From positions 1 through 64,000 of the forward strand of contig JANXLU010000098.1 of assembly GCA_025354985.1 (NCBI GenBank): 64,000 bases of DNA, read 5' to 3'. Below are positions 1,844 through 5,635 of this stretch, piece by piece. Made by a program: the position numbers and the translations under genes. Numbering within the stretch: position 1 is the first letter of the stretch; each line of letters starts with the position of its first letter. The notes below the pieces were generated by a model. That model was not told where the DNA came from, ran no database searches, and saw only the letters and a list, made by a program, of their open reading frames with translations. Origin of the DNA: Chloroflexota bacterium. GTDB taxonomy: Bacteria > Chloroflexota > Anaerolineae > J036 > Brachytrichaceae.

Positions 1844-2047
1844 ATGCATGAACCTTTGTACTGGGATGATGCCTATCCAATTGCCCTGAAAATCAGGCGG
1901 TTTTTCCCGCGGATCGAGCTGACGAGCGCCTCGGCACACGAGCTGCGCACGCTGGTTCTGCAGCTGGAAGGGTTCGCCGATGACCCGACGATGGGTCACC
2001 CAGAGCGGTTGGAAGACATCCAGCGCGAGTGGTTGGATTTAACATAA
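1844..2047 (+). CDS. iscX: Fe-S assembly protein IscX
   Basis: This 67-residue acidic protein matches the IscX/YfhJ family in length and pattern. It starts with a WDD motif ([13 protein letters not shown]), continues with a helix and an [17 protein letters not shown] segment, and ends in [12 protein letters not shown]. In the family this corresponds to the conserved L-R-x-W-V-x-x-L-x-x-F-x-D-D-P core and the acidic C-terminal W-L-D tail. IscX binds IscS and modulates sulfur delivery for Fe-S cluster building; this role comes from work on the E. coli protein. The stop codon overlaps the nuoB ATG (TAATG), which couples it to an Fe-S subunit of complex I. No isc or suf genes are nearby in the window. 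Confidence 0.85.
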
Positions 2048-2661
2048 TGGCAGAAGAGCAATTTCAGAACGATATTCCTGTCCCGGATGATCTAAAGAAC
2101 AATATTTTTATAACGTCGCTTGACAAGCTCTATAACTGGGGTCGCAAGCGGTCCATGTGGCCCATGCTCTTTGGCCTGGCGTGCTGTGCGATCGAAATGA
2201 TCGCCACCGCGGCCAGCCGGCATGACCTGGCTCGGTTTGGCTGGGAATTGATGCGCGCCAGCCCGCGTCAGGCGGATTTGATGATTGTGTCTGGCACGGT
2301 CACCAAGAAGATGATCCCGCAAATTGTGCGGTTATATAACCAAATGCCGGAGCCGCGATATTGCGTGGCGATGGGAGCTTGCGCCACCAGCGGTGGACCG
2401 TTTAAGGAAGGCTACAACGTGGTCAGCGGCGTGGACAAATATATTCCTGTGGATGTGTATATCCCTGGTTGCCCACCGCGCCCGGAGGCGCTGATGCATA
2501 GTTTCATCAAGCTGCAAGAAAAGATTGAGAAGCAGAGCATTCGCACGGTGCGCTGGTATCAAAAGGGTGACGAGGTCAGCATTCCCGTGCCCATGCTCGG
2601 ACCGGACCTTGTGGATATGCGCAAGGCCAATGAGATCAAAGCTCAGGCCGCCACTGTCTAG
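2047..2661 (+). CDS. nuoB: NADH-quinone oxidoreductase subunit B
   Basis: The 204-residue product is the NuoB/PSST subunit that carries cluster N2 at the end of the electron chain next to the quinone site. The conserved vicinal cysteines are seen in [10 protein letters not shown], the third cysteine in [12 protein letters not shown] and the fourth in [12 protein letters not shown]. The ATG overlaps the iscX stop by one base. This start is preferred over an upstream in-frame GTG at 2029 because the added residues are not family-like. No nuoA precedes it, and nuoE-H and nuoJ-N are not in the window, so the complex is encoded in pieces or the other subunits lie elsewhere. Confidence 0.95.
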
Positions 2662-2692: not shown

Positions 2693-4690
2693 ATGTCAGA
2701 AACACCTGTTCGACCTACTGGCCCGAAGATTGTTGGCGGACCCAAAATGGCAGCCGGCGCACCCGCGCCGGCAGCGCCAAAACCGGCCGTCGCCGCGGCC
2801 TCCCCGGTGAGTGGGGCAAAGCCGCCTGCTGCGCCGGCAGCGGTTGCCGCGCCCGCCAAGCCCGCGGTGGCCGCCAACACCGATGCCGAAATGGCGGATA
2901 TTACCGCCAAATTTGAGGGATTGATCAGCAAAGCCCCGTATGAGGGCGTCTTTATCAACGACCCGGCACGCCTTGTTGAGGTCGCCACCTATGTGCGCGA
3001 TGGCCTGCATTTCAGCATGCTCAGCAGCATTACGGCGGTGGACTATCCAAAAGACGGCGTGATCGAGGTCGTATATCACGCGACCCGGGTGCCGTCGGGT
3101 GGCAAGCCGCTGTGCTTCAAGGTGCGTGTTCCACGCGAGGACGGCAAGTGTTCGATGCCATCGCTGTGCGGTGTTTACCCCGGAGCTGAGTTTCAGGAGC
3201 GCGAGGCGTACGACTTATATGGCGTCCGTTTTGAAGGTAACCCGGACCTTCGGCGCATTTTAATGTGGGAGGGCTTTGCGGGCTGGCCCATGCGCAAAGA
3301 TTGGAAGGAAGCCTATTTCGAGGGCGAGACCAAGCCTTTTGAAACGCGCTGGCCCGCGGGCAAGCATGAGCTGGCCGAGGAGCGCGTACCCTGGCAGGAT
3401 AACGTCACATTCCCGAAAGACTTCGATCCGTTTTCGTATACCAGCAAGCCGGATGGCAATATCTACGAGAGCATGACCGGCAACCGCAACAGTGTGCAGG
3501 GTTTCCCGGATGCGCCTGTTGTCGTCGATGCCAATGGGATGAATCAGCCACAAGCCGACGAGTTTATGGATGAGCTCAAGACCGACGAGATCATCGTAAA
3601 CATGGGGCCCCAGCATCCCAGCACCCACGGCGTGTTGCGCATGGTGGTCAAGCTGGATGGCGAAACCATCACCGATCTAAAACTGGCGCTGGGCTATTTA
3701 CATCGCAACCACGAGAAGATTGGCGAGCGCAACACCTGGTTGCACAACATCCCATATACCGACCGTTTGGACTATATCTGCGGTCTGGCAAACGAGTGGG
3801 GGTATGTTCTGGGTGTGGAGCGGATGATGGGGATCACCCCGACGCCGCGCGTGGAATATCTGCGCATCTTGATGGCGGAGTTAACCCGTATTGAAAGCCA
3901 CTTCTGGTCGATCGGATTTTTGCTAAACGACGTGGGCGCCTTCTTCACACCGGCGCTCTATTTCATCACCGAGCGCGACTTCATTATCGACTTGTTTGAG
4001 AGCGTGGCTGGAAGCCGCCTGATGTGTAACTACATGCGTTTTGGCGGGGTCAGCCGAGATTTCACCGAGCAACAACTGCAACGGGCGCACGAGTTGGCGT
4101 TTGAACGCTTGCCCCGCGCCATCGACGAGCTTGATCACTTCTTGACCGAAAACGACATTCTCAAGGCGCGCTGCATCGGGGTGGGCTACCTGCCAGCCGA
4201 TCGCAGCGTTGCCTATTCGCTCACCGGGCCGTGTCTGCGCGCTGCGGGTGTAGGCTATGACGTGCGCAAAGCTGATCCATACGGTTACTATGAACGGTTT
4301 GACTGGGACGTGCCGGTGCGCTACAACGCGGACGTGTATGACCGATACCTGGTGCGCGTTCAGGAAATGCGCGAGAGCCTGAAGATTGTGCAACAGGTGC
4401 TTCAACGGATGAGCAAGGACACCAAGGTTGGAGATATCCAGGCCGGCAAGAAAGCCTACAATCATCGCGTGCCCGCCGGGCAGACCTATGCACGCGTGGA
4501 AACGCCCAAGGGCGAGTTGGGCTTTTATCTGGTCAGCGATGGTGGCCAGAACCCATACCGATATCACATTCGTAGCAGCAGCTTCATAAACCTAAACTCG
4601 CTAAAAGAAATGACCGTGGGTTACAAGGTCGCCGACAGCGTGGTTATCCTCGGCAGTCTGGACATTGTGCTTGGAGAAGTCGATCGTTAA
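2693..4690 (+). CDS. nuoCD: NADH-quinone oxidoreductase subunits C and D, fused
   Basis: This 665-residue fusion joins the 30-kDa (NuoC) and 49-kDa (NuoD) subunits. Residues 1-62 are a low-complexity Ala/Pro tail containing [13 protein letters not shown]. NuoC follows (about 65-260) with its signature [19 protein letters not shown]. NuoD begins near residue 302 with [13 protein letters not shown] and ends with the canonical [11 protein letters not shown]. Conserved [12 protein letters not shown] and a Y residue expected at the quinone pocket are present. Fusion fixes a 1:1 ratio of the two peripheral-arm subunits. The N-terminal tail is unusual: the same GPKxxGGPKMA motif occurs at the C terminus of NuoI. 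The gene is 31 bp downstream of nuoB with no visible Shine-Dalgarno. Confidence 0.95.
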
Positions 4691-4704
4691 TTAATATACG
4701 TTTT

Positions 4705-4739
4705 CCGAGCCGGGTTACGCACCGCACAACCCGGTTCGG
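4705..4739 (+). other. Intercistronic hairpin between nuoCD and nuoI
   Basis: CCGAGCCGGGTT (4705-4716) and AACCCGGTTCGG (4728-4739) form a 12-bp stem with one G-U pair and an 11-nt loop. There is no T-run after it, and nuoI starts 14 bp later. It is more likely an mRNA-stabilising or partial-attenuation element than a full terminator. Confidence 0.55.
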
Positions 4740-4753
4740 CAAATAAACTTACT

Positions 4754-5635
4754 ATGGCAATCATTGGAGCAGGAATTCTCAAGGGTCTGGGCGTGACCAT
4801 GCGTCACTTTGTTGAGACGTATATTGAGGACTTTAAGTACATGGGTTTCAACGTCGACAGCTCGGCTGTGCGCCGCCAGAATCCCAAGAACCGGGGTCTG
4901 GCCACGATCGAGTATCCCAAGGAAAAGATGCCCCTCCCGGAGAATTTCCGGTATGTGCCGTTTCTGGTAGAAGACACCTCAAAGGAAGAGGAGAAGTGCA
5001 CCAGCTGTGGCATCTGCGCAAAGGTCTGCCCGCCGCAGTGCATCTGGATCGAGCGCACCGAAGACCCTGTGACAAAGCGTCCGGTGCCTCAGCCCAAGCA
5101 ATTCTTTATCGACAGCACTATCTGCATGAACTGCGGTTTTTGTGCCGAGTTCTGCCCGTTTGATGCAATCAAGATGGATGTCAACTACGAAATCAGCTAC
5201 TATCCGGCCGAGGATTACAAGACCGCCGCGGCGGACGCCGTGGCGGCCAGCATCCAGGACAACGTGTTGCCCGTTCACGGTGGTGGTGCCGTTGGGCGGT
5301 TGATATTTGACAAGACCGGGCTGATGAAAAGCGACGTGTATCACGCCACAATTCACCCAAGCGACTGGGCCCGAGAAGTGGCGGAGCGCAAGCCCGCACC
5401 TGCGGCGAAGGCTGCTCCGGTGGCGGTTGCCGCACCGGCCGCCGGCCTATCCGCGCCAAAGCCTGCCGGCCCCAAGATGGCGGGTGGGCCAAAGATGGCT
5501 GCCCCGGCCGCCGGTGTGGTTGTGCCCGCGGCTCCGATTGTGTCATCCGAAGCCCCTGCGCCCGCCGTTGTTTCGCCACCTGCCCAAGTTCCGGTCACGC
5601 GACCGAGCAAGCCAAAAATTGTCGGTCACGTGTAG
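4754..5635 (+). CDS. nuoI: NADH-quinone oxidoreductase subunit I with long C-terminal tail
   Basis: This is the NuoI/TYKY-type ferredoxin subunit, which carries clusters N6a and N6b. The first 4Fe-4S motif is CTSCGICAKVCPPQC (from about residue 82) and the second is CMNCGFCAEFCPF (from about residue 124). The family core ends near residue 190, but this protein has 293 residues. The extra 100 are an Ala/Pro-rich, probably disordered tail containing GPKMAGGPKMA and ending SKPKIVGHV. The same motif sits at the N terminus of NuoCD. No clear Shine-Dalgarno precedes the ATG. The gene ends the nuo group and is convergent with ubiB. Confidence 0.93.
   Translation: MAIIGAGILKGLGVTMRHFVETYIEDFKYMGFNVDSSAVRRQNPKNRGLATIEYPKEKMPLPENFRYVPFLVEDTSKEEEKCTSCGICAKVCPPQCIWIERTEDPVTKRPVPQPKQFFIDSTICMNCGFCAEFCPFDAIKMDVNYEISYYPAEDYKTAAADAVAASIQDNVLPVHGGGAVGRLIFDKTGLMKSDVYHATIHPSDWAREVAERKPAPAAKAAPVAVAAPAAGLSAPKPAGPKMAGGPKMAAPAAGVVVPAAPIVSSEAPAPAVVSPPAQVPVTRPSKPKIVGHV

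Follow-up and report, generated by a model that had tools for sequence, protein, structure and literature searches.

Lineage-specific peptides in low-complexity tails of complex I and Rieske subunits in a Chloroflexota family suggest a possible link between respiratory complexes

The nuoB-nuoCD-nuoI locus and its complex I

The window (i.e., the whole stretch of 64,000 nucleotides that was analyzed) corresponds to contig C34 in a draft assembly of 4.19 Mb and 98 contigs, here called the source genome or G000, and carries a detached nuoB-nuoCD-nuoI cluster. The first gene, nuoB (2047..2661, + strand), matched PF01058 and the NCBIfam model PRK14819 (320 vs a cut-off of 312 bits), and is followed by nuoCD (2693..4690, +), which encodes the fused 30-kDa and 49-kDa subunits (PF00329 at residues 90-206 and PF00346 at residues 413-665 of a single frame). 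The third gene, nuoI (4754..5635, +), was identified by Fer4 matches over cut-off and by its homologues in relatives, together with a TIGR01971 match (E 7e-25) that lies below that model's cut-off. Upstream of nuoB, the window also holds a gene (985-1794) that we take to be alpha/beta-hydrolase-like; in same-genus genomes (L132, L133), a similar gene adjoins a presumably Rex-like gene near what we assume to be an M3-type peptidase.

The source genome has two complex I sets, and nuoH was found in these two only. From the reading of frames and profile matches, contig C85 carries nuoD, E, F, G, H, I, J, and L of the canonical enzyme, and contig C28 carries nuoA, H, J, K, L, M, M, and N, in which two proteins over the TIGR01972 cut-off lie between NuoL and NuoN. 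The Chloroflexi 2M complex I, as far as the consulted part of its description goes, combines two NuoM, a detached nuoB-CD-I, and a fused nuoCD (PMC7117926, citing Chadwick et al. 2018), and the consulted part of an account of Chloroflexus gives a second, loosely arranged complex I set with two nuoM (PMC3150298). All three features were recovered here, with nuoB-CD-I on C34 apart from the C28 genes, and by gene content and arrangement we assign nuoCD and nuoI to the Chloroflexi-type 2M complex I, a putative single enzyme made from the products of C28 and C34. Two further subunits drew attention by their C-termini: NuoJ of the 2M set (L240:8273-8992) has a charged Ala/Glu/Arg-rich extension, and NuoH (L240:9022-10320) continues past the family domain.

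Two proteins of the cluster carry long tails of low-complexity Ala/Pro/Lys composition without family match. The N-terminal tail of NuoCD covers residues 1-61 (2693..2875, +), the best family matches all starting at residue 85 or later, and the C-terminal tail of NuoI covers residues 203-293 (5360..5632, +), beginning after a conserved IHP; the resulting lengths of 61 and 91 residues reflect our own choice of boundary. An AlphaFold model of NuoI was poor throughout (mean pLDDT 41) and thus uninformative on tail disorder. An 11-residue tandem GPK..GGPK motif occupies residues 10-20 of NuoCD (2720..2752, +) and recurs in NuoI as GPKMAGGPKMA at residues 239-249 (5468..5500, +), within a C-terminal part that reads ...KPAGPKMAGGPKMAAPAA...SKPKIVGHV in translation. 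The terminal KPKIVGHV (residues 286-293; 5609..5632, +) resembles a GPKLVGHA of a protein on contig C7 discussed below.

A motif beyond chance and its carriers in the source genome

The pattern [GK]PK[ILMFV][AV] occurs twice in the NuoCD tail against a mean of 0.013 in 50,000 residue shuffles, and three times in the NuoI tail against a mean of 0.015. The tandem GPK..GGPK form appeared in 1 of 200,000 such shuffles of either tail. The motif is therefore well above the level expected by chance from tail composition. This confirms the starting observation of a preliminary description of this DNA, i.e., that the same motif stands in the tails of both NuoCD and NuoI, since the translations agree and shuffling almost never produces it. 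Scans of whole genomes gave the same picture. In a collection of 84,980 genomes, which may omit the source genome, the tandem form had one match, located in a frame of 92 aa without Ala/Pro-tail character. In the source genome, GPK[ILMFV][AV] was found at 53 places, fewer than in the reversed control (71); all were inspected, and most were non-coding frames or folded proteins. Only four proteins bear the pattern within an Ala/Pro tail, namely NuoCD, NuoI, a protein at the edge of contig C47, and the C7 protein, and the concern that the motif might be common in unrelated low-complexity proteins was thereby mostly laid to rest. The stricter GPK[IM][AV]G occurs at four places in this genome, three of them in the tails of NuoCD, NuoI, and the C47 protein. 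No such motif was present in frames over 100 aa on C85 (canonical complex I) or C28 (2M membrane subunits), and a contig-edge PKIVG on C11 was rejected as a further carrier, as it belongs to a peptidase-like frame and not to an Ala/Pro tail. Together, the shuffles and the whole-genome scans rule out chance or general low complexity as the source of the motif.

The C47 edge protein has an N-terminal tail (MADEVTPPRSGPKFAAG...) with a third copy of the 11-residue motif, identical to that of NuoCD at 11/11 residues while 7/10 synonymous codons differ. A candidate continuation was found on contig C66, which has at its start a frame rich in Ala/Pro/Lys (these make up 0.55 of its first 60 residues; the next best contig end reaches 0.38). 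This frame (L266) is the only Ala/Pro/Lys-rich open one among the 117 contig ends compared (94 first ends and 23 far ends, a minority of the latter; 11 masked). It continues through TRREFLNYVWG to a Rieske domain, and genes for cytochrome b and cytochrome c come next (PF00355, PF00033, and PF00034 over cut-off in adjacent genes, as in cytochrome bc/b6f-type complexes). The C47 edge carries 68 codons and one base of the frame (C47:1-205), and C66 has two bases ahead of its first codon, which would leave the gene in frame if the contigs abut. Ala/Pro/Lys-type tails are present throughout the Rieske proteins of the family. In five relatives, the gene beside the C47 frame, which we take to encode an M3-type peptidase, had no matching neighbor. 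We judge it likely that the two contigs join, which would make the C47 protein, most probably, the Rieske component of a bc complex.

The fourth carrier, the C7 protein (L128; C7:1182-2456, outside the window), has a long N-terminal tail, one membrane span, and a Pro/Thr-rich C-terminal tail, with four GPK[LF][AV] copies (GPKLVGHA, GPKFAVK, GPKLAAK, and GPKLAQK) ahead of the single span. It adjoins a multi-span protein that we presume, from its histidine-bearing helices, to be ferric-reductase-like; neither of the two had a Pfam match at 0.01.

Tails and peptides in related genomes

NuoI was matched in 60/60 and NuoCD in 57/60 of the genomes searched, the weaker matches including paralogues, and 22 of 27 family relatives gave NuoCD, NuoI, and Rieske proteins together (cut, broken, or missing in G001, G012, G015, G017, and G018). 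Tails stood at the same places in all 22, with lengths of 28-103 residues in NuoCD (G006 being cut at a contig end), 41-114 in NuoI, and 37-243 in Rieske proteins. The worry that the tails might be absent from close relatives can thus be set aside; their presence is kept across the family, and the GPK motif is not. GPK[ILMFV][AV] was found in 2 of 87 extracted sequences, both from the source genome and none from relatives, and same-genus relatives have the tails without the motif. Among the 60 genomes, GPK[IM][AV]G occurred at 29 places in 19 genomes, and none of the 25 places outside G000 lies in an Ala/Pro tail, which rules out a motif general to the relatives.

Other genera showed shared peptides of their own. 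In G005, from another genus of the same family, AAKPGAPV repeats occur in the NuoCD and NuoI tails and KPGAPV in the Rieske tail; across its whole genome, the KPGAPV pattern was found at 11 places, i.e., four in NuoCD, five in NuoI, two in Rieske, and none elsewhere (reversed control, 0). None of these G005 genes is split between contigs: nuoCD and nuoI lie complete on C34 and Rieske on C20 of that assembly. In G006, from a third genus, PPGA[A/R/K] occurs six times in the NuoI tail and four times in the Rieske tail, the NuoCD tail lying outside this check because of the contig end. The pattern is also in the Rieske protein of G012, of the same genus as G006, and the Rieske tail of G015 (L320) has a single PPGAK. 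Scanned for PPGAK, the genomes G006 and G012 yielded 26 places, seven of them in NuoI or Rieske tails, against six in the reversed control; the remainder were isolated matches, for the most part in frames that were short or implausible, with a few in long frames (e.g., a tRNA-synthetase-like protein). In both G005 and G006, Rieske lies on a different contig from nuoCD and nuoI, and the sharing is therefore not a local repeat of one operon. The search of relatives proposed in the preliminary description thus found no GPK motif in their tails and turned up other shared peptides in G005 and G006.

Several tails have features of another kind. The NuoI tail of G046 (L034) has repeated charged helix-like segments of the ISQEELERRRAEALAR type instead, and similarly repeated charged helix-like segments (MSVAERARAAAKAAQ type) occur in same-genus Rieske tails (L301, L303). 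Across the family, genomes in which NuoCD starts with M-[A/S]-E-[E/T]-T tend to show this start in the Rieske protein too, which would fit related N-terminal cassettes. A contig-edge reading frame on contig C34 of G005 (L242) starts with a long MSMSN repeat (1-150).

Same-genome similarity across lineages

Tail similarity was compared using one genome for each of nine lineages, with local-alignment z-scores against shuffles and permuted partners. As the lineages and the test were picked after the tails had been viewed, the p values are descriptive. With single representatives, same-genome pairs exceeded permuted pairs for NuoI-Rieske (p=0.0001), NuoCD-NuoI (p=0.003), and NuoCD-Rieske (p=0.011), and random representatives gave median p values of 0.0007, 0.0015, and 0.0095, respectively. 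In the same order, the medians rose to 0.004, 0.011, and 0.075 without G000, and to 0.037, 0.07, and 0.53 without G000 and G005. No significant sharing was seen in the six lineages left without G000, G005, and G006 (median p 0.18, 0.27, and 0.56), NuoI-Rieske still reaching 0.008 in the single-representative run; this loss of signal indicates that three lineages carry it. The remaining lineages have in common only the general AKPA vocabulary of the family. A version based on exact 5-mers agrees over nine lineages (NuoCD-NuoI 0.006, NuoCD-Rieske 0.0001, NuoI-Rieske 0.0014), with significance lost for NuoCD-NuoI without G000 and G005.

These results bear on the possibility that the tails form an entropic or electrostatic brush that needs only to be basic, Pro/Ala-rich, and flexible (e.g., as a spacer or for a lipid or crowding effect), with similar peptides as a by-product of composition. 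Such a brush would fit the similar tail composition in all 22 relatives, most of them without a private motif, and the six lineages without significant same-genome similarity. However, shuffles that keep composition fall short of both the observed counts and the same-genome similarity, and we consider this explanation improbable.

Codon differences and selection on the peptides

Between proteins, synonymous difference among the peptide copies was 0.54-0.75 in G005, 0.69 in G006, and 0.70-0.88 in G000, where 0.56-0.65 is expected for independent codon draws. With synonymous codons at the level of independence, the occurrences in different proteins do not stem from recent DNA copying, which rules out recent gene conversion between proteins and leaves the "duplicated linker" of the preliminary description, in the sense of a recent DNA duplication, unsupported. 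The codons point instead to peptides kept by selection on the protein, or separately arisen under such selection. Like short linear motifs, the peptides recur in different proteins with conservation at the protein level.

An older event might still be considered, in which Ala/Pro/Lys-coding repeats spread between tails by recombination or slippage and then drifted, so that the peptide was loosely kept and no function is shared. The tails are indeed repetitive and fast-changing, the G005 NuoI repeats are almost identical in DNA (recent slippage inside one gene), and the codons GGT GCG are identical in all NuoCD and NuoI copies of G005, so an old shared origin of these repeats is possible. As a full account this seems unlikely, however, because the NuoCD and C47 proteins keep an identical peptide over synonymous sites at the independence level, copies inside one G006 tail differ at 0.73-0.75 of synonymous codons, and KPGAPV is absent from other G005 proteins.

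A possible association of complex I and the bc complex

The tails would all face the cytoplasm. The complex I arm is cytoplasmic, and a tail ahead of a twin-arginine segment and a membrane span is expected to be N-in; the Rieske tail, with a twin-arginine TRREFL segment and a span after it, is thus placed on the cytoplasmic side, as is the C7 tail, which is followed by a positively charged stretch and a span. Being on the same side, the tails could meet. We hypothesize that they are flexible cytoplasmic arms with repeated copies of one lineage-specific peptide, through which the tails of NuoCD, NuoI, and Rieske may attach to one and the same partner or to one another and thereby keep the complexes close; the peptide could change freely over time provided that partner and tails change together. 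To this reading, in which the tails draw the 2M complex I and the bc complex towards a shared partner or towards one another, we give a probability of roughly 45%. Against tethering stand the four copies in the C7 protein, which is not a known respiratory subunit, the motif-free tails of same-genus relatives, and the six lineages in which significant sharing was not seen. A more doubtful extension is that of a self-updating tag, in which each lineage replaces the peptide of NuoCD, NuoI, and Rieske jointly, a scaffold or tail-to-tail contact leads to a bacterial I-III assembly, and the C7 protein is a further client or an anchor.

The peptide might alternatively serve as the target of an enzyme for modification or assembly (e.g., lysine modification at GPK) that acts on several membrane redox proteins without tethering them. 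The G000 copies retain the lysine after proline, and the presence of the peptide in the C7 protein, with its one membrane span, would suit such an enzyme, but the lysine context differs fully in other genera (KPGAPV, PPGAK), so that enzyme specificity would have to shift each time, and we regard this as decidedly unlikely. That both tails merely dock at the same place on complex I, the Rieske link being a false contig join plus coincidence, draws on the fact that the C47-C66 join spans two contigs and is hardly credible given that all three sharing genes of G005 are whole within single contigs. The "common binding site" of the preliminary description therefore survives in part: a peptide under protein-level selection is best read as a candidate shared binding element, and docking within complex I alone does not agree with a C47 protein that is most likely Rieske or with the NuoCD, NuoI, and Rieske sharing in G005.

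Whether complexes I and III are kept together in bacteria, and by what means, is, to our knowledge, a largely open question. A peptide common only to NuoCD, NuoI, and Rieske in G005, and another apparently in the same three proteins in G000, would offer a direct handle on I-III association, with each peptide a ready bait and each genus a natural replicate. Within the portion of the open-access literature that the searches reached, there was no report of such shared tails and nothing on complex I-III assembly in Chloroflexota.

Comparison with known systems

Long extensions of NuoC have precedent in the PRK07735 type of NCBIfam (430 positions), in which a long region likewise precedes the NuoC domain (the domain here aligns to positions 313-425); we know of no peptide in that type that is common to other complexes. 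The locus resembles the Chloroflexi-type 2M complex I in its fused nuoCD, its nuoB-CD-I apart from the membrane-arm operon, and its two nuoM between nuoL and nuoN; tails and shared peptides are unmentioned in the consulted part of PMC7117926. Respiratory supercomplexes (III-IV in actinobacteria and yeast; I-III-IV in mitochondria) reach the outcome that is proposed here, i.e., complexes kept together, but in the accounts consulted, in part, their contacts run via folded or supernumerary subunits and not via matching disordered tails. A further likeness is to short linear motifs in disordered regions, which are short, repeated, placed on flexible tails of several proteins, and quick to turn over, as the peptides on these presumably flexible tails would be. 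The difference is that several subunits of two enzymes here seem to switch motif together within a lineage, which, if true, would show with unusual clarity how a group of presumably disordered tails can alter a motif in concert.
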